The notes: generated by a model from the sequence alone, not told the origin. A DNA stretch of 35,362 nucleotides from Chloroflexales bacterium (GCA_022360155.1 JAKSDJ010000725.1:1-35362), one strand, 5' to 3'. Counted from the stretch's first letter, positions 11,157 through 19,862 are shown. Translations and numbers: made by a program.

Positions 11157-11768
11157 TTGACCATGATGCAGCAACGCTTAAGTGATCTCACCGTCCTCGA
11201 TGATGAGACGCTCATGGCACAGGTAGCTTCGGGGAACAGCCGGGCCTTGGAACAACTCTATGACCGATACGCACGATCCGTGTATGGCCTGGCACTACGT
11301 ATGTTGGCAAATGCTGAATACGCCGAAGATATTGTGCAAGAGACGTTTTGGCGCATTTGGCGACGGAGCGCGACTTTTCGTCACGGGTATGGTCAATTTG
11401 CCCCCTGGCTCTTTGGCATTGCCCACAACCTATGTATTGACGAGCTTCGTCGGCAAAAATCACGCCCAATACCTGCCCACGCAGATGACACACAGCAAGT
11501 TTTATACGACTTGCCCGATACGCAGCATGATATGGACACGCTGACCTGGCAGTCAGAACGCCGCCGCCTGATAACCAGCGCGCTGCGTGGGTTGCCGCCT
11601 GATCAGCGTCAGGTTATTGAGTTAGCCTATTTTGGGGGGTTATCTCAACGGGAGATTGCCGAGCAACTGCAAGACCCGCTTGGCACTGTAAAGACGCGCA
11701 TTCGCCTGGGGTTGCAAAAACTCAAGCAACTGCTTCAGGCCCAAGGTGTCGATCACGGTGATCGCTAG
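11157..11768 (+). CDS. ECF-type RNA polymerase sigma factor (SigK-like)
   Basis: The 203-residue sigma factor has only regions 2 and 4. Region 2 covers about residues 28-100 (LEQLYDRYARSVYGLALRML, AEDIVQETFWRIW, FAPWLFGIAHNLCIDELRR). Region 4 covers about 135-195 (LPPDQRQVIELAYFGGLSQREIAEQL, LGTVKTRIRLGLQKLKQLL). The gene is 11 bases before an RskA-type anti-sigma gene, which should hold it at the membrane until a signal arrives. The start may be TTG 11157, which has GAGG at good spacing, or ATG 11163/11166; the difference is two or three residues. Regulation is probably autogenous, as usual for such pairs, but no duplicate of its promoter was recognised. Confidence 0.9.
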   Translation: MTMMQQRLSDLTVLDDETLMAQVASGNSRALEQLYDRYARSVYGLALRMLANAEYAEDIVQETFWRIWRRSATFRHGYGQFAPWLFGIAHNLCIDELRRQKSRPIPAHADDTQQVLYDLPDTQHDMDTLTWQSERRRLITSALRGLPPDQRQVIELAYFGGLSQREIAEQLQDPLGTVKTRIRLGLQKLKQLLQAQGVDHGDR

Positions 11769-11779
11769 ATTGTAGCCAC

Positions 11780-12682
11780 ATGAACCTGCACAACCATCAT
11801 CCAACTGACGATTTGCTTGCTGCTTACGCCCTGGGAGCACTCGATGCCGATGAAGCAATGCGGGTTGAAACTACCCTAGCAAACAACCCTGAGGCTCAGG
11901 CTGAACTCAAAGCGCTGAGTGAAATTGTCGCAATGTTGCCATATGCAGCTCAACCGATCGAGCCCTCAAACACTGTGAAACAACAACTGTTCGCTCGTGT
12001 GGCAGCGGATCAAGCGCAAGATCCGCCCGCCCAAATGCCTACAACGCTTCCTCCTGTAGCATTGCAGCCACAACGCGGCTGGCGAATGGCATCGGCGGCG
12101 GTTATGGCTATACTGCTCCTGCTCATTGTCGGGCTTGGCTCGTTCACGTTTTCGCTTCAATCAAGTATTGCCGAGCTTCAGCTTACGAACCAAAGTCTGG
12201 AGACGCGCTTGGCCGATCTCCAACAGACTCTGGCGGAAACCCAGACGAGCCAACAGCAACTGGCTGCCCAATTTGAAGCAAGCCAGAATAATGTTGCGAC
12301 GCTGATGACACGGCTGACCCAGGAAGAACAAGTCCTTACCTTTATCTCCGCCCCTGGGGTTGCAACCCGTATCCTCGAAGCGACCAACAGTCAAATTCGG
12401 GCAGCGGGCGAGATGTATATGTATCCCGGCCAAACGCAGGCGGTTGTGCTCTTCCGCGGGCTGTCGCCGCTCGAATCGGGCCGGGTGTATCAGTTTTGGC
12501 TGGCTAACAATGAGGGGCAAGTTGACGCAGGTATTTTCCACGTGGACGAAAGCGGCCTAGAACGCCTGATCGTCAATGCGCCGCGCGAGGTCAACGCTTT
12601 TACCCAAGTGATGTTGACCATTGAGCCAGAAGGCGGCAGCGACGCGCCAAGCAGCGAGGTTGTGCTCGAAGGATCGCTCTAA
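11780..12682 (+). CDS. RskA-type anti-sigma factor
   Basis: The 300-residue protein is a membrane-spanning regulator that should sequester the sigma factor encoded just upstream. The N-terminal anti-sigma domain (HPTDDLLAAYALGALDADEA, about 7-55) lies in the cytoplasm. One membrane helix spans about 104-124, followed by a Gln/Leu-rich coiled coil (about 128-185). The C-terminal RskA domain (about 190-300: APGVATRILEATN, AVVLFRGLSPLESGRVYQFWLANNEG, VMLTIEPEGGS) would be outside the membrane. The long coiled coil between helix and sensor domain is notable. The gene ends convergently with the acetyltransferase gene; the two stop codons overlap at 12679-12682. Confidence 0.9.
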   Translation: MNLHNHHPTDDLLAAYALGALDADEAMRVETTLANNPEAQAELKALSEIVAMLPYAAQPIEPSNTVKQQLFARVAADQAQDPPAQMPTTLPPVALQPQRGWRMASAAVMAILLLLIVGLGSFTFSLQSSIAELQLTNQSLETRLADLQQTLAETQTSQQQLAAQFEASQNNVATLMTRLTQEEQVLTFISAPGVATRILEATNSQIRAAGEMYMYPGQTQAVVLFRGLSPLESGRVYQFWLANNEGQVDAGIFHVDESGLERLIVNAPREVNAFTQVMLTIEPEGGSDAPSSEVVLEGSL

Positions 12683-14053: not shown

Positions 14054-14776
14054 TCAGAAATTCCCCGCGAGAGCCGCATTCAGCATAATCAAGACAAAAC
14101 CATTCTGGAGAGCGTGATACAAAATACAAGGCAGAGTCGAACCACTCCATTCGCGGAGGAAAGCGAGCAACAAGCCCAACACAAACAGCGCTGGAAAGAT
14201 CAGCGGTATGAAATGAAACGCCGCAAAGATCGCTGCATTCAAGAGAATTGCAGGGACTGGGCCGTAGCGTTGTCGCAGCAAGGGGTAAATCATCCCGCGG
14301 AAGAAGAGTTCTTCCGCCAATGGCACGAGTCCAGCGACCAGCAACAAGACTAGCAGCAAAACTGGCAACGTGAAGGCTTGTCCGCCGGACAATGCTTCGA
14401 TTTGCGGGTTCTCAAACGTGCCGCCCTGGAACCGGGCAATCGTTGTGTTAACCGCTGCGATACCTATCAACCCAATAAACACCAGCGGCGGGGTCGCCAG
14501 AAAGGTCTGAATCGGCGCAGCTCGCATACCCAAGGCCTGCCAGCCTGCCCGTCGCGCAGCAAAGAGATAGACGCCAAACACCAGTAAACTGTAAATCCCA
14601 ACACTGGCAACATACAACACTGGCGACGCCAAACCGCTGCTTACTCCTAGTCCAGCCAACTGGATCGACACTTGGAGCGCAATAACCACTGCCACCGTAC
14701 CAAACACCACCAAGAGCAACGCCAAGCCGACATCGCGCCACCCCCAGGGAATCGAAACCGGCGCATCACTCGTCAT
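14054..14776 (-). CDS. CPBP family intramembrane metalloprotease
   Basis: The 240-residue membrane protein has about six to seven hydrophobic helices and the CPBP (CAAX protease and bacteriocin-processing) motifs: EELFFRG (E155, E156, R160), AAFHF (H188) and HALQN (H221, N225). These residues form the metal-dependent active site of Rce1-like proteases. The substrate is unknown. I chose ATG 14776 because AGGAG stands a few bases upstream and the ATG overlaps the Fur-family gene's stop as ATGA; a longer open frame begins inside that gene but its extra residues are out-of-frame Fur coding sequence. The overlap implies translational coupling and a role in the same metal-stress unit. Confidence 0.85.
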   Translation of the reverse strand: MTSDAPVSIPWGWRDVGLALLLVVFGTVAVVIALQVSIQLAGLGVSSGLASPVLYVASVGIYSLLVFGVYLFAARRAGWQALGMRAAPIQTFLATPPLVFIGLIGIAAVNTTIARFQGGTFENPQIEALSGGQAFTLPVLLLVLLLVAGLVPLAEELFFRGMIYPLLRQRYGPVPAILLNAAIFAAFHFIPLIFPALFVLGLLLAFLREWSGSTLPCILYHALQNGFVLIMLNAALAGNF

Positions 14777-15255
14777 AATTCTCCTCTGCCAATGTCTTCC
14801 TCGGACACCAAGGTTGGGGCAGACCCAGACATCTGCTGGCATTGCCGGCACAATCCAAAGACAGACAAATGCTCCAGACGGGCAGCAAAGCCATAACGCC
14901 GCTGCAGTTCCGCGCGTATCGTGTCGAATATCGTCGGATCGATTTCGAACATCGCCGCACAGTTTTCGCACACCAGGTGATGGTGCTGGTGATGCGTCGT
15001 CAGCGTATAGACCATATGCCCCTTCCCAAGGCTCGTCTCGCTGACCAGGCCAGCGACCCGCAACCATTTCAAGGTACGATAAACCGTCGCCATATCAATT
15101 TGGATGTTGGGGTATCGTACTGCCAACTGTTGGACAATATCATCAGCACTGAGATGGTAATCGCTCTGTTGGAGGATTTCCAGCATCAGCCGGCGCTGTG
15201 GGGTGAGCCGATATCCCAAGCCGCGTAGGTACCGAATAAGATCATCATAGTTCAT
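14773..15255 (-). CDS. Fur-family metalloregulator, possibly Zur
   Basis: The 160-residue DNA-binding repressor has the Fur layout. The winged helix is at about 1-80 (RLTPQRRLMLEIL, HLSADDIV, IDMATVYRTLKWL). A dimerisation and metal domain follows, with structural cysteine pairs CENC (C96, C99) and CRQC (C136, C139). Candidate regulatory ligands are H34, H88-H93 and E104; the Glu at the position where PerR has Asp favours Fur or Zur over PerR. Its setting between a CDF exporter and a CPBP gene, under an ArsR zinc sensor, makes Zur the best guess. Its ATG overlaps the exporter stop as ATGA, and its own stop overlaps the CPBP start in the same way. Confidence 0.88.
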   Translation of the reverse strand: MNYDDLIRYLRGLGYRLTPQRRLMLEILQQSDYHLSADDIVQQLAVRYPNIQIDMATVYRTLKWLRVAGLVSETSLGKGHMVYTLTTHHQHHHLVCENCAAMFEIDPTIFDTIRAELQRRYGFAARLEHLSVFGLCRQCQQMSGSAPTLVSEEDIGRGEL

Positions 15256-16370
15256 ACGAAATGGTGAGCCGTGAGCGCATGATGATCTCGCTCGGCGCTA
15301 TCTTGCGGATCCACATGGATGCTTGCTTCTGAAAGCGCGGGTAACTGATGAAGCAGGCGATGCCGGACTTCTTCGGCAATCGCATGGCTGTCGGCGGTAT
15401 TCAGGCTCGCCTCCACAACGATATGCAATTCAGCGTAGAGCTGGTGCCCGATCCAGCGCACCTTGGCTGCATGCAAATCGAGCACGCCCTCCACCGGGCG
15501 TGCCGTCTGCTCGATAGCGTCAACCAACCCGGGATCGACCGCGTCCATCAGCCGTTCCCAGATTCGTCGACCCGCATCGCGCAGCACAAAGAGGATCGCG
15601 ACGGTGATCAAGATGCCAATGATTGGATCAGCCAACTCCCAGCCTAGGAGCGCACCAATCGCGCCGCCTAAGACTGCCAAAGACGTAAAGCCATCTACGC
15701 GGGAGTGTTGTCCATCGGCAATCAGCGCCGCACTGCCAATCCGCTTGCCGACACGGATACGATACTGGGCGACGACTTCGTTCCCAATAAAACCGATGAT
15801 AGCGGCAGCAATCACCCAGCCGACATTGCGTAGCGGTTGCGGCTCGAACAGTCGCCGCACCGATTCGTAAGCGGCTAAAACCGCACTGAAGCCGATCATA
15901 AGTACGATGAAGATGCCAGCAATATCTTCCGCCCGTCCCCAACCATAGGTATACCGCCGATTGGGCGGGCGTCGCCCAATAACGAAGGCCACCCAGAGCG
16001 GCAGCGCGGTCAGCCCGTCAGAGAAGTTATGGATCGTGTCGGCCAGCAACGCCACACTACCGCTGAAGTAGACGACAATCACCTGCAAGAACGCCGTTAC
16101 TAGAAGGCCAGCCAGCGAGATTTTGACGGCGCGGATGCCCTGTTCGCTTCCGGTCAGCGCCCGATCAACTTGCGGCCCCTCGTGGCTGTGCGCGTGGAAG
16201 AAGACGCCGAACCATTTGCGCCAGCCCCGTACCGCGTGGTCGTGGTCGTGGCCATGGTCATGATTGTGGTCATGGTCATGGTCGTGGCCATGGTCATGAT
16301 TGTGGTCATGGTCGTGGCGATCCGTGTGTTGGTGTTCGGGCTTGGCGTTTGTAGCACTCTCGTGCATCAT
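15252..16370 (-). CDS. CDF-family zinc/cation efflux transporter, His-rich
   Basis: The 372-residue inner-membrane antiporter exports divalent cations, most likely Zn2+. Residues about 13-45 form a His/Asp-rich cytoplasmic tail made of a 12-residue unit (HDHDHNHDHGHD) given twice and then partly again. The membrane domain follows, with the metal-site motifs ALLADTIHNFSD in helix 2 and ALIADGQHSRVD in helix 5. The C-terminal ferredoxin-like domain (about 280-360) contains VRWIGHQLYAELHIVV. ATG 16370 is preferred over the in-frame ATG at 16391 because AGGAG lies seven bases before it. It follows the ArsR gene and overlaps the Fur-family gene, so efflux and a second regulator rise together. Confidence 0.92.
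   Translation of the reverse strand: MMHESATNAKPEHQHTDRHDHDHNHDHGHDHDHDHNHDHGHDHDHAVRGWRKWFGVFFHAHSHEGPQVDRALTGSEQGIRAVKISLAGLLVTAFLQVIVVYFSGSVALLADTIHNFSDGLTALPLWVAFVIGRRPPNRRYTYGWGRAEDIAGIFIVLMIGFSAVLAAYESVRRLFEPQPLRNVGWVIAAAIIGFIGNEVVAQYRIRVGKRIGSAALIADGQHSRVDGFTSLAVLGGAIGALLGWELADPIIGILITVAILFVLRDAGRRIWERLMDAVDPGLVDAIEQTARPVEGVLDLHAAKVRWIGHQLYAELHIVVEASLNTADSHAIAEEVRHRLLHQLPALSEASIHVDPQDSAERDHHALTAHHFV
16245..16316 (-). repeat. 36-base tandem repeat encoding the CDF His-rich tail
   Basis: Two copies of a 36-base unit lie at 16245-16280 and 16281-16316. The first 30 bases are identical and only the end of the second copy differs. Each unit encodes 12 residues. Such a repeat can expand or shrink by slippage, changing the number of metal-binding histidines without a frameshift. 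Confidence 0.85.
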
Positions 16371-16479
16371 CTGACTACTCCTTGAGAACATCCGGTCTTA
16401 CTCATCAAGCGTATTGACATAGAAGGCTTCTGGTGATTTCAGGCCTGTAGTGATCGAAGGAGACGCTATCCATACTCAT

Positions 16480-16881
16480 CTATGCTTCGGGATGGTCGGG
16501 CAGCGCATGGACGACATGGGCCAGATGATGCAATGCCTCGCGAAAGAGCGCCGCAACATGAACGTCGTCAACCGAATAGAAGACCCGCGTCCCCACACGG
16601 CGGAATTTGACGACACGCAAATCGCGCAAGCTCTTGAGTTGGTGCGACGTAGCCGATGGTGTAATACCAGCGATTTCTGCCAGTTCATTAACACTGTGCT
16701 CACCCTTAGTCAACGCGTAGACGATGCGCACTCGTGTTGGATCGGCGAGGGACTGAAACGTCCGCGCTACCAACAGCGCAACTTCGCCCGACAATTGCGG
16801 TGCGGACAGAAACACATCAACCACATCATCAGTCTCAGTAGCGGGCAGCGTTCGAACTTGAGCAGCAATCGATCGTGACAT
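16480..16881 (-). CDS. ArsR/SmtB-family zinc-responsive repressor
   Basis: The 133-residue winged-helix repressor should bind the operon promoter when zinc is low and let go when it is high. The helix-turn-helix is VNELAEIAGITPSATSHQLKSL (two halves, about 64-86), with the wing at VKFRRVGTRVFYSV. The last helix carries D106-x-H108-x10-H119-x2-H122, exactly the spacing of the alpha-5 zinc site of CzrA and SmtB. No N-terminal CxC or alpha-3 cysteine pair exists, so arsenic or cadmium sensing of those types is unlikely. It is the first gene of the unit, 109 bases before the CDF start, and its promoter is overlapped by an SmtB-like operator. Confidence 0.93.
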   Translation of the reverse strand: MSRSIAAQVRTLPATETDDVVDVFLSAPQLSGEVALLVARTFQSLADPTRVRIVYALTKGEHSVNELAEIAGITPSATSHQLKSLRDLRVVKFRRVGTRVFYSVDDVHVAALFREALHHLAHVVHALPDHPEA

Positions 16882-16899
16882 AGGACTGCATTACTGTAT

Positions 16900-16919
16900 A
16901 TATGAGCAAGTATGCATAT
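16900..16919 (-). promoter_or_regulatory. SmtB/CzrA-type operator of the zinc operon
   Basis: ATATG and CATAT flank a 10-base centre; the core read on the plus strand is TGAGCA-AG-TATGCA, matching the SmtB-type pattern TGAxCA-N2-TATxCA. It starts immediately after the -10 element and covers the predicted transcription start, the classic position for repression by the ArsR protein encoded 19 bases downstream. The match to the family consensus is from memory. Confidence 0.65.
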
Positions 16920-16990: not shown

Positions 16991-17137
16991 GTGCGCGAAC
17001 GCGCAGATGCGCTCGAACAAACTCACTGCGAAGACCGGTCAAGCAGCGCTAGAACCTGTTTTTTTCCTAACAAAAGATATCATAATGCATCGCCAATTGG
17101 GATGTATTTGCGATATAATGTTCATGCAACTATTTGC
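16991..17137 (+). promoter_or_regulatory. cbiMQO promoter region with palindrome and direct repeats
   Basis: A perfect TATAAT lies at 17114-17119, with no good -35 element, about 40 bases before the cbiM ATG. It is flanked by two copies of TATTTGC (17105-17111 and 17131-17137), 26 bases apart. Further upstream, TGCGCG-AA-CGCGCA (16992-17005) is a perfect palindrome. No cobalamin riboswitch was recognised. A weak -35 with flanking repeats suggests control by an unidentified metal regulator. Confidence 0.4.
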
Positions 17138-17157
17138 AACAGTAAGTGGAGGCGCCT

Positions 17158-18174
17158 ATGTTTGCCCAGTGGTTGGTCGACCGGTTGGTATTAGGTTTAC
17201 ATATTCCGGATGGATTTCTCAGTGTTCCTGTCGCATTGGCGTGGTGGATCTTGACAATCTTGGTCGTTACCATCGCCGTCAACAAAACAAGCAAAAGCCT
17301 GAATGAGCGGCAGGTTCCGCTGATGGGCGTTATGGCCGCCTTCATCTTCGCAGCGCAAATGCTGAACTTCCCCGTCCTCGGCGGCACGTCAGGGCACCTA
17401 CTTGGCGGCGCACTCGCCGCGCTCCTGCTTGGTCCCTGGGCCGGCGTCCTGGTGATGACTTGTGTCGTCGGACTTCAGGCGCTACTGTTTCAGGACGGCG
17501 GGCTGCTCGCGATGGGCGCCAATATCTTCAATATGGGGATTGCCACAACGCTGGTCGGGTATGGGCTTGGCGTTCCACTACTACGCGCATTCGGCGGCAG
17601 ACCATGGGGCCTGGCGCTGACCGGATTCGTTGCCGGCTGGGTTTCGGTGATGCTAGGCGCTGCACTGACTGCGTTACAGCTTTCGCTATCCGGCCTCGCA
17701 GCAGCGATTGTTTTTCCAGCAATGCTCTTCGTCCATGCTTTTATCGGCATCGGCGAGGGACTGATCACGATGGCAGCAATTGCTTTCGTTGTCAGTACGC
17801 GCCCCGATCTGGTCGACTCATTGGCGGTCTACCTTGACCCAACGGCGGCGCAGCGACCCATAAGTCGCGGTCTGCTCGGCGCGGTCACCGGATTCGGTTT
17901 GGCGATTGCGCTGGGCGCGACCCTGCTTGCGCCTCTGGCTTCGGGCGATCCGGACGGATTGGAGCGCGTCGCCGAGGATCAGGGTTTTATCGACCGTGCC
18001 CAGGATGCGCCGTTTAATCTTCTGCCCGACTATGCCATACCCGGACTAGAGGGCGGATTCTCGACCATTCTGGCGGGTATTGTCGGGCTGCTGATCGTAT
18101 TCGCCCTCGTCTACGGCATCACCATGATGCTTCGGGGCCGCAACACCGCTACATCCGACCCCCATCACAAGTAG
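17158..18174 (+). CDS. cbiM: CbiM-type cobalt/nickel ECF transporter S component with C-terminal PDGLE domain
   Basis: The 338-residue membrane protein is the metal-binding component of an energy-coupling-factor importer. The core (about 14-235) begins with HIPDGFLSVPVALAWW and contains GVMAAFIFAAQMLNFPV and GGTSGHLLGGALAALLLGPWAG, both typical of CbiM. The end holds SGDPDGLERVAEDQGF and a last helix, the PDGLE domain that substitutes for CbiN. ATG 17158 is chosen because GGAGG lies five bases before it; a GTG at 17146 is in frame but badly placed. In studied CbiM/NikM proteins the metal is bound by a free N-terminal Met-His; here the His is residue 15 after a short hydrophobic extension, so processing may be needed. 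cbiQ follows. Confidence 0.9.
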   Translation: MFAQWLVDRLVLGLHIPDGFLSVPVALAWWILTILVVTIAVNKTSKSLNERQVPLMGVMAAFIFAAQMLNFPVLGGTSGHLLGGALAALLLGPWAGVLVMTCVVGLQALLFQDGGLLAMGANIFNMGIATTLVGYGLGVPLLRAFGGRPWGLALTGFVAGWVSVMLGAALTALQLSLSGLAAAIVFPAMLFVHAFIGIGEGLITMAAIAFVVSTRPDLVDSLAVYLDPTAAQRPISRGLLGAVTGFGLAIALGATLLAPLASGDPDGLERVAEDQGFIDRAQDAPFNLLPDYAIPGLEGGFSTILAGIVGLLIVFALVYGITMMLRGRNTATSDPHHK

Positions 18175-18239
18175 GTGGAGTCGCAGACCCGCAACGGTGA
18201 TTAACCCGTTTTCACAGACGCTCCCTGAATGGAAACCCT

Positions 18240-19040
18240 ATGTCTTTATCAAGTACGCTACTCGACCGCTACATTGACCATCAAAGCCCGGTTCACGCCC
18301 TAGACCCGCGTGTGAAGGTACTGTTGACCTTTGGGTACATCCTGGCAGTGGCGCTGCTGCCGCCAGGATCATGGCTAGCGCTGGGCATCTTCGCTGCGCT
18401 GCTCTGGTGGGCGGTATGGCAGGCGCATCTTCGATTACGAACGATTATTACGCGGTCATTCGTCGCTTTGCCCTTCGCGTTGGTCGCCGTCTCGGTCGTT
18501 TTCACCCAGCCCGGCGCACCGTTATTTCGCTTCCCAATGGGCTTTATCACGCTCACTGCCACCGACGCCGGCCTGGTTCTGTTTCTCAGTATTGTCCTCA
18601 AATCCTGGCTATCGGTTCAGGCTGCCCTGCTACTCACCACTACCACGCATTTTACCGATGTGCTGTATGCCATGCGGGGCTTGCGTCTCCCGGCAGTGCT
18701 TGTCGCTGTTCTTTCATTTAGCTATAGATATTTGTTCATTCTGATTGATGAGGCGCAGCGCTTGCTCCGCGCACGCGAGTGCCGCTGCGCCGAACAGCCC
18801 GGTCAACGCAGCGGCGGCAGCATTGCTTGGCGCGCTCGCGTAGTCGGGAGCATGGTCGGCACATTGTTTTTACGCTCCTACGAACGCAGCGAGCGGATTT
18901 ATGTCGCCATGCTCGCACGCGGTTATGATGGCGAGATTCGCACCTTACGCCCCCGCACCATGTCCACGAGTGAGCGGGGCCTGTTGATGACGGCCCTGGC
19001 CAGCTTCGCTGCACTGATCCTGTTCGCTTTCATTTTGTGA
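18240..19040 (+). CDS. cbiQ: CbiQ-type ECF transporter T component
   Basis: The 266-residue integral membrane protein couples the ATPase to CbiM. It has about five to six hydrophobic helices, the early HALDPRVKVLLTFGYILAVALL segment typical of EcfT/CbiQ, and the cytoplasmic coupling helices that end in Ala-Arg-Gly type motifs: LRARECR (about residues 175-182) and MLARGYDGEIRTL (about 228-240). ATG 18240 follows cbiM by 65 bases with a weak ribosome site. The order M-Q-O matches known cobalt transporters; the metal, Co2+ or Ni2+, cannot be fixed from sequence. Confidence 0.9.
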   Translation: MSLSSTLLDRYIDHQSPVHALDPRVKVLLTFGYILAVALLPPGSWLALGIFAALLWWAVWQAHLRLRTIITRSFVALPFALVAVSVVFTQPGAPLFRFPMGFITLTATDAGLVLFLSIVLKSWLSVQAALLLTTTTHFTDVLYAMRGLRLPAVLVAVLSFSYRYLFILIDEAQRLLRARECRCAEQPGQRSGGSIAWRARVVGSMVGTLFLRSYERSERIYVAMLARGYDGEIRTLRPRTMSTSERGLLMTALASFAALILFAFIL

Positions 19041-19109
19041 TCAAACAACTGGAACTTGTCGGAGATTGAAGAAGCCCCAGTCTTCAATATGGAGAGGTGA
19101 ATTATTACT

Positions 19110-19862
19110 ATGCAAACACTCGTCGCGCCTGATACCCGCGTCAACGGCACTGGACCAGCGCTCGACGTACACGATCTTCGCTATTGCTACCCCGATGGAA
19201 CCGAAGCATTGCGCGGGATCAACATACGTATTGCGTCCGGCGAAAAAGTCGCCCTGGTCGGCCCCAACGGTGCGGGAAAAAGCACACTCCTCTTGCACCT
19301 CAACGGCGTGCTGCGCTGCACCGACGGCGCTGTTCGCATCGGCGGCGACCCGGTCAACGATACCACCGTTCGCACTATTCGGGCGCGGGTAGGTATGGTT
19401 TTTCAAGACCCCGACGACCAACTCTTCTCGCCCACGGTCTTCGACGATGTCGCCTTCGGCCCGCTACACATGGGGCTGCCCGAGGGCGAAGTATATCAGC
19501 GCGTGAGTTGGGCTTTGGAACAGGTCGGCATGAGCGGCTTCGAGCAGCGTATGCCCCACCACCTCAGCATTGGTCAGCGCAAGCGCGTGTCGCTGGCTAC
19601 CGTGCTCTCGATGCAGCCTTCCATTCTTGCGCTCGACGAGCCCTCGGCTGGGCTCGACCCGCGCGCGCGGCGGAGCCTGGTGGCGCTTTTACAAGAATTA
19701 CCGCAAGCTATGCTGGTTTCGACCCACGACATGCGCCTGGTCCAGGAAGTCTTTCCACGCATGGTCATTCTCGCCGAGGGGAAGATCGCCGCCGACGGAC
19801 CTAGCGCCGACCTGCTAACCGACTCAGCGCTGCTGGAACGGTATGGCTTAGAACGCCCGTAG
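19110..19862 (+). CDS. cbiO: CbiO-type ECF transporter ATP-binding protein
   Basis: The 250-residue ATPase powers the metal importer. Walker A is GPNGAGKS (51-58), the Q-loop is MVFQDPDDQLFS (97-108), the signature is LSIGQRKRV (152-160, as in other ECF ATPases), Walker B is ILALDEPSAGLDP, and the switch His is in VSTHDM. Only one ATPase is encoded, so a homodimer is expected, as in other CbiMQO systems. GGAGAGG precedes ATG 19110 at a slightly long spacing. The gene ends facing pntB, with an inverted repeat in the 131-base gap. Confidence 0.93.
   Translation: MQTLVAPDTRVNGTGPALDVHDLRYCYPDGTEALRGINIRIASGEKVALVGPNGAGKSTLLLHLNGVLRCTDGAVRIGGDPVNDTTVRTIRARVGMVFQDPDDQLFSPTVFDDVAFGPLHMGLPEGEVYQRVSWALEQVGMSGFEQRMPHHLSIGQRKRVSLATVLSMQPSILALDEPSAGLDPRARRSLVALLQELPQAMLVSTHDMRLVQEVFPRMVILAEGKIAADGPSADLLTDSALLERYGLERP

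Follow-up and report, generated by a model that had tools for sequence, protein, structure and literature searches.

A putative divergent metal-homeostasis locus in a Chloroflexales bacterium, with an ArsR-CDF-Fur-CPBP gene cluster beside a cbiMQO importer

Gene content of the locus

We analyzed a stretch of 35,362 nucleotides from a Chloroflexales bacterium (GCA_022360155.1, JAKSDJ010000725.1:1-35362), which we call the window. (The genome is a draft with 1048 contigs and 6% estimated contamination.) A first-pass annotation had described four genes on the minus strand, for an ArsR, a CDF, a Fur-family, and a CPBP protein. We found the genes in that order (Table 1), and all four proteins score well over the Pfam cut-offs for their families (HTH_5, Cation_efflux with ZT_dimer, FUR, and Rce1-like). 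The two ATGA overlaps are also present, between CDF and Fur (GTATGAACT, 15252-15255) and between Fur and CPBP (TTATGACG, 14773-14776). Alignments to relatives of the CDF protein reach residues 377-378 of 379, and alignments to relatives of Fur begin at residues 1-2. The genes united by the overlaps are thus complete, and an assembly join is less likely. The automatic ORF list placed the start of CPBP at 15067, inside fur. If translated from the ATG at 14776, which overlaps the fur stop, CPBP has 240 residues, aligns with its relatives along nearly its whole length, and has its EExxxR, FxxxH, and HxxxN motifs at residues 155, 184, and 221.

The ArsR and CDF genes are 88 bp apart. From arsR to fur, the genes lie on the same strand, are chained through cdf, and share one predicted promoter; a search of the window for sigma-70-like promoters found no promoter-like site upstream of fur. 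We infer that arsR-cdf-fur-cpbp is a single operon, transcribed as one unit.

Table 1. Genes and putative regulatory sites of the locus, in window coordinates
Feature	Position	Strand	Basis
CPBP (type II CAAX protease-like) membrane protein gene	14054..14776	-	EExxxR, FxxxH, HxxxN motifs
Fur-family regulator gene, Nur-like	14773..15255	-	Best solved relative 3EYY; two CxxC motifs
CDF cation exporter gene	15252..16391	-	His-rich N terminus; HxxxD in TM2 and TM5
ArsR/SmtB-family repressor gene	16480..16881	-	Alpha-5 metal motif D-x-H-x10-H-x2-H complete
Probable ArsR operator, ATATGCATACTTGCTCATATAT	16898..16919	-	Palindrome overlapping -10/start region
Sigma-70-like promoter of the four-gene operon, TTGACA-17-TAAAAT	16946-16918	-	11/12 consensus positions
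Sigma-70-like promoter of cbiMQO, TCGCCA-18-TATAAT	17090..17119	+	Promoter search
Nur-box-like operator, ATGCAACTATTTGCAA (TTGCAA-N4-TTGCAA, one mismatch)	17124..17139	+	Promoter comparison
cbiM/nikM, ECF S-component fused to PDGLE domain	17146..18174	+	Domain search
cbiQ, ECF T-component	18240..19040	+	TIGR02454 CbiQ above cut-off
cbiO, ECF ATPase	19110..19862	+	Domain search

The first-pass annotation did not mention cbiM-cbiQ-cbiO (17146-19862), which diverge from the ArsR gene. As these genes are on the opposite strand and 265 bp from arsR, operons for export and import lie back to back in the window. By its predicted components, CbiMQO is a nickel/cobalt-type ECF importer. The likely start of cbiM is the ATG at 17158, with GGAGG ahead of the start codon. 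No separate CbiN was found for this importer. Control by a cobalamin riboswitch was considered and rejected, as a search of the window gave no Rfam match. (The same genome has a second cbiM system, cbiM-cbiN-cbiQ, on contig C210, which also has a cobalamin riboswitch. There, at L172, the riboswitch precedes a B12-type ABC transporter, Opp/NikA-like ABC genes, and cbiM-cbiN-cbiQ, all in one long co-directional run.)

The window's CbiM (at 17146-17215) and the CbiM proteins of seven other loci (L024, L026, L029, L030, L031, L080, and L082) are extended at the N terminus, ahead of the conserved xHIPDGF. In NikM/CbiM, the free N-terminal amine is a metal ligand, so in this subfamily the ligand would be missing unless the extension is cleaved. 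The residues just before xHIPDGF (VLG, VLA, or ALA) could be a short signal-peptidase site.

The CDF protein scores 250 bits against TIGR01297 (cut-off 82) and includes the ZT_dimer domain (PF16916). Against the NCBIfam equivalog for the Co/Ni exporter DmeF, it scores 43 bits, below the cut-off of 250. HxxxD in both TM2 and TM5 is the usual pattern of zinc exporters.

The ArsR protein belongs with SmtB, CzrA, and NmtR and probably has an operator of its own. Its SmtB/CzrA-like character and its predicted place in one operon with the exporter agree with the first-pass annotation. It scores 87.5 bits for HTH_metalloreg (cut-off 55), and its best solved relatives are SmtB and NmtR, followed by CzrA. 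Its alpha-5 motif, DVHVAALFREALHHLAH, fits D-x-H-x10-H-x2-(H/E) on the last helix. This set of residues fits sensors of Zn, Co, or Ni, so the metal bound is predicted to be one of these. Together, the paired HxxxD motifs of the CDF protein and the D/H/H/H of alpha-5, which fits Zn/Co sensors such as CzrA, suggest zinc as a possible signal for the export half. The N terminus, MSRSIAAQ, lacks an NmtR-type His3 ligand. (The ligands of NmtR include the N-terminal His3; PMC7055735.) In the Chloroflexota arsR-cdf group, ArsR proteins encoded beside CDF genes end in a conserved LPDH, similar to the tail of NmtR (L074, L076, L078, L129, L132, L134, L140, and L153).

The probable ArsR operator recurs in relatives. 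Upstream of arsR-cdf in G001, a nearly identical sequence (ATATGAGTATCTGCTCATATAT) occupies the equivalent position, where related palindromes of the TATCTGAGTA type are found in other arsR-cdf loci.

The Fur-family regulator and its candidate operator

Among solved structures, the best match to the window's Fur protein is Nur from Streptomyces coelicolor (3EYY, E = 2.6e-27), followed at lower significance by Mycobacterium tuberculosis FurB/Zur (2o03, 7e-18), S. coelicolor Zur (3mwm, 3e-12), and Escherichia coli Zur (4mtd, 2e-9). The four-histidine M-site of Nur was reportedly described by An et al. in 2009 as H33, H86, H88, and H90. In the alignment to 3EYY, these positions are all histidine in the window's Fur (H34, H89, H91, and H93). 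Several cbiMQO-linked relatives, however, have Asp or Ala in place of H89, so the ligands are not enough to identify the metal. At the second nickel site of Nur (H70, H72, and H126), the window's Fur keeps only the H126 position (as H129). This second site is possibly a crystallization artefact (PMC7055735).

Genomic context is more informative and points towards nickel or cobalt. Fur relatives that are 58-61% identical often adjoin cbiMQO. The window's Fur lies in a 10-member clade with 96% SH-aLRT support, and all six transporter-flanked members of this clade, the window included, have cbiMQO. (cbiMQO is also found beside further Fur relatives from other families.) More distant relatives, at about 39-45% identity, adjoin znuABC, some of them with the same type of operator-like box (described below). 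The metal therefore does not follow from box or clade, and a zinc role for the wider clade is possible.

The first-pass annotation took the locus to respond to zinc, with a Zur-like regulator. This reading is not well supported, given a Nur-like Fur, a neighboring ECF importer of the Ni/Co type, and the other Fur paralogs in the same genome. On contig C384, at what is likely the Zur locus (L108:3311-13941), one paralog is divergent from two COG0523 (CobW) genes, and another leads a znuA-znuC-znuB operon. Because these paralogs adjoin znuABC and COG0523 genes, they are better candidates for Zur. (The window's Fur scores 53.8 bits against the NCBIfam Zur equivalog, whose cut-off is 167; this model is narrow, so the low score is weak evidence.) Zur was not our first choice of identity for the window's Fur, given the synteny, the nearest structure, and the genome's other paralogs.

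As for the importer, we favor nickel, and cobalt next. The preference for nickel comes from the Nur-like Fur, the cbiMQO synteny, the separate system with CbiN and a riboswitch, and the genome's potential users of nickel, taken together. (The genome has a urease alpha subunit gene and matches to the NiFe-hydrogenase family, PF00374, some of which could be related complex I subunits.)

A comparison of fur/cbiMQO promoters from relatives revealed a box, TTGCAA-N4-TTGCAA, just after the -10 element. In the window, it lies four bases past the TATAAT of the cbiM promoter. A box or its remnant directly follows the -10 element in ten genomes of the promoter alignment; in G020 and G056, it is clear in one half only. 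Allowing up to two mismatches, 33 of the 61 hits to the box fall within the marked fur/cbiM promoters, which make up 4.4% of the 1.01 Mb of fetched loci (binomial P = 8e-29, which overstates independence because the genomes are related). Spacers of 1-3 or 5-9 gave no comparable excess, and a spacer of 0 gave a smaller one (13/44). Across the whole window, two-mismatch sites are as numerous as expected by chance, so the argument for the box rests on its position and on the relatives. The box of S. coelicolor Nur is tTGCaa-N5-ttGCAA (PMC3919588). The Chloroflexota box has the same half-sites, with a spacer that is conserved as 4 instead of 5.

We consider the window's Fur the likely binder of the box at cbiM. 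Several relatives carry a box at the promoter of fur itself or at a shared divergent promoter; no box was found in the 450 bp that precede fur in the window. In other Chloroflexota, the box is also found before Fur genes at znuABC-type transporters (L038:7541-7554, L175:3886-3899, L173:1340-1353, and L185:1612-1625), and one type of box may serve two kinds of importers. In the window's own genome, there are 43 one-mismatch sites, and about 20 of them are copies of one repeat. None is on the contigs with the hydrogenase-family matches (C183, C890, and C162) or the urease match. Given this absence and the many repeat copies, we do not claim a wider regulon. (The sequence TTGCAACCTTTGGCAA has ~20 copies in this genome, such as C66:25577, C262:2794, and C398:12072, and is probably part of a repeat or a mobile element.)

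Gene order in relatives and probable history of the locus

We examined about 120 gene neighborhoods, about 63 of Fur (in whose tallies the window is included twice) and 56 of CDF. The first-pass annotation had suggested looking for a conserved ArsR-CDF-Fur-CPBP order, and we saw this order in no other genome examined. The four-gene order is therefore an arrangement of one genome. Only in the window is a CDF gene within 1.5 kb of fur. The parts do recur: arsR adjoins cdf in 10 of the 56 CDF neighborhoods, and 19 loci, the window among them, have cbiM no more than 3 kb from fur. Insertion of a stand-alone arsR-cdf unit between fur and cbiMQO is the probable origin of the locus.

CPBP has a history of its own. 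Nearly all of the same-family genomes that we searched have a good match to it, and its usual place in the relatives is after leuD or pntAB, without metal genes. In some of them, an anti-sigma/ECF-sigma pair follows. (The window's ECF sigma factor and anti-sigma pair is at 11157-12682, and such a pair is near the CPBP gene in G001 and G016 as well.) The window retains the order leu, pntAB, CPBP, and sigma pair, interrupted after pntB by the metal module. Most simply, CPBP would have been resident already when the module arrived upstream of it. Because of this placement, we think that CPBP is most likely a passenger, co-expressed with the metal genes and not part of their function. The earlier suggestion that it remodels a membrane target under metal stress found no support, since CPBP is at the leu/pnt locus in relatives that lack metal genes there. 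A functional metal role for CPBP is disfavored, as it adjoins leuD or pntB in most relatives with readable context.

Among the neighborhoods examined, G002 is the only other case in which the same CPBP directly follows Fur, so the Fur-CPBP neighborhood may predate the insertion of arsR-cdf. (At this locus, L023:8148-10396, Fur, CPBP, and a gene for a CorA-family Mg/Co/Ni channel are in a row.) In L032, a weaker CPBP relative is one gene away from fur.

A candidate circuit and its precedents

We think it probable that this is a divergent metal-homeostasis locus, in which ArsR controls a CDF exporter and a Nur-like Fur, and Fur closes cbiMQO. What we see in the sequence is the gene order, the overlaps, the promoters, both conserved palindromes, and the synteny of the units elsewhere; we infer transcription as one unit, the pairing of protein and box, the identity of the metal, and the direction of the response. 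Apo-ArsR would repress arsR-cdf-fur-cpbp at the palindrome (16898-16919) over the -10/start region. If Ni, Co, or Zn rose, metal-bound ArsR would release the operator, and the CDF exporter and additional Nur-like Fur would rise together. Metal-loaded Fur would bind the box on the cbiM promoter (17124-17139) and turn off the CbiMQO importer. The insertion of arsR-cdf would have moved fur from its own promoter, which is often boxed in relatives, to the ArsR promoter. Because the importer's likely repressor is encoded in the export operon, an excess of metal would be expected to start export and stop import at the same time. The first-pass annotation had proposed such a link, and the sequence supports that part, with a Fur-family import repressor in the predicted operon and a boxed importer adjacent; zinc and Zur are not supported, and the link is already known from the mycobacterial smtB-zur.

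How do other explanations compare? If the operon served zinc stress (with ArsR as zinc sensor, CDF as zinc exporter, Fur as Zur, and CPBP remodeling a membrane target), we would not expect the closest Fur relatives to be at cbiMQO instead of znuABC, nor Zur candidates at znuABC and COG0523 genes elsewhere in the genome. The Fur's score of 53.8 against a Zur cut-off of 167 and the place of CPBP at the leu/pnt locus also disagree with this explanation, and we judge it unlikely, even though the paired HxxxD motifs, the likeness of ArsR to SmtB, NmtR, and then CzrA, and the znuABC genes beside some more distant Fur relatives all fit it. A sub-case of our proposed circuit is that the two halves sense different metals: an excess of zinc (or cobalt), sensed by ArsR, would raise the repressor of Ni/Co import and close a broad-range ECF importer. 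The ArsR/CDF features lean towards Zn/Co and the Fur/ECF features towards Ni/Co, and the arsR-cdf and fur/cbiMQO units are apart in all relatives examined. A shared metal would be simpler, however, and the metal of each half is a prediction, so we see crosstalk as possible, if on the doubtful side.

The juxtaposition might also be an accident, in which arsR-cdf landed by fur without any regulatory effect and fur has a promoter inside cdf. That the gene order is not conserved agrees with this, but the ATGA overlaps join complete genes and the region upstream of fur has no promoter-like site or box, and we consider an accident quite improbable.

If our proposed circuit is correct, the amount of import repressor is under the direct control of the excess sensor. 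We tentatively suggest, short of an even chance, that a rewired Nur-like repressor under an ArsR efflux promoter forms a two-sensor loop in ~6 kb, possibly for two metals, along with a widespread Chloroflexota operator, TTGCAA-N4-TTGCAA, for cbiMQO and znuABC-type importers. After the known precedent, this would be another, separately assembled instance, outside the Actinobacteria, of an excess sensor that controls an import repressor, and it would give a concrete operator for a poorly studied clade of Chloroflexota Fur proteins. It would also illustrate how position can wire a stand-alone efflux unit into the control of an importer. If the halves sense different metals, the locus would be a clean system for studying metal crosstalk.

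Several parts of the locus resemble known systems. Like SmtB, CzrA, and NmtR, the window's ArsR has the alpha-5 motif D-x-H-x10-H-x2-H, a (probable) palindromic operator over its promoter, and an exporter gene alongside; where SmtB has Cys61 in alpha-3N, it has a serine. S. coelicolor Nur (3EYY; PMC7055735, PMC3919588) is the best solved relative of the window's Fur and shares the four M-site histidine positions and, with the candidate box, the TTGCAA half-sites. The two differ in the spacer (5 in S. coelicolor versus 4), in the window's lack of histidines at Nur positions 70 and 72, and in their targets, which are sodF and nikABCDE for Nur and apparently cbiMQO in the window. The M, Q, and O components of the Cbi/NikMQO ECF transporters (PMC2667541) are all present, without a separate CbiN and with a CbiM-PDGLE fusion and an N-terminal extension before the conserved histidine. 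Cobalt-specific CbiMNQO systems have CbiN and/or a cobalamin riboswitch, and both are missing from this locus.

The closest precedent for the control logic is smtB-zur (Rv2358-furB; PMC6103462, PMC7174638), in which an excess sensor of the ArsR/SmtB family and a Fur-family import repressor share one operon. In mycobacteria and Corynebacterium diphtheriae, zur is co-transcribed with the SmtB-like sensor and induced by zinc (PMC6103462). The genes overlap in some species, and in M. tuberculosis the import regulator is induced by excess metal. In M. smegmatis, SmtB controls the CDF exporter ZitA, while smtB-zur itself appears to be constitutive (PMC7174638). A CDF exporter is thus under an ArsR-type sensor there, as proposed for the window, but the mycobacterial CDF gene is elsewhere in the genome instead of inside the operon. 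The targets are zinc genes in the precedent and, apparently, a divergent Ni/Co-type ECF importer in the window, where the regulator is Nur-like by sequence. The logic in which an excess sensor induces an import repressor is already known, and the parts of the locus are ordinary; the wiring is found in one genome only. It differs from the precedent in having a Nur-like regulator, a CDF gene inside the operon, and a divergent ECF importer as the apparent target.
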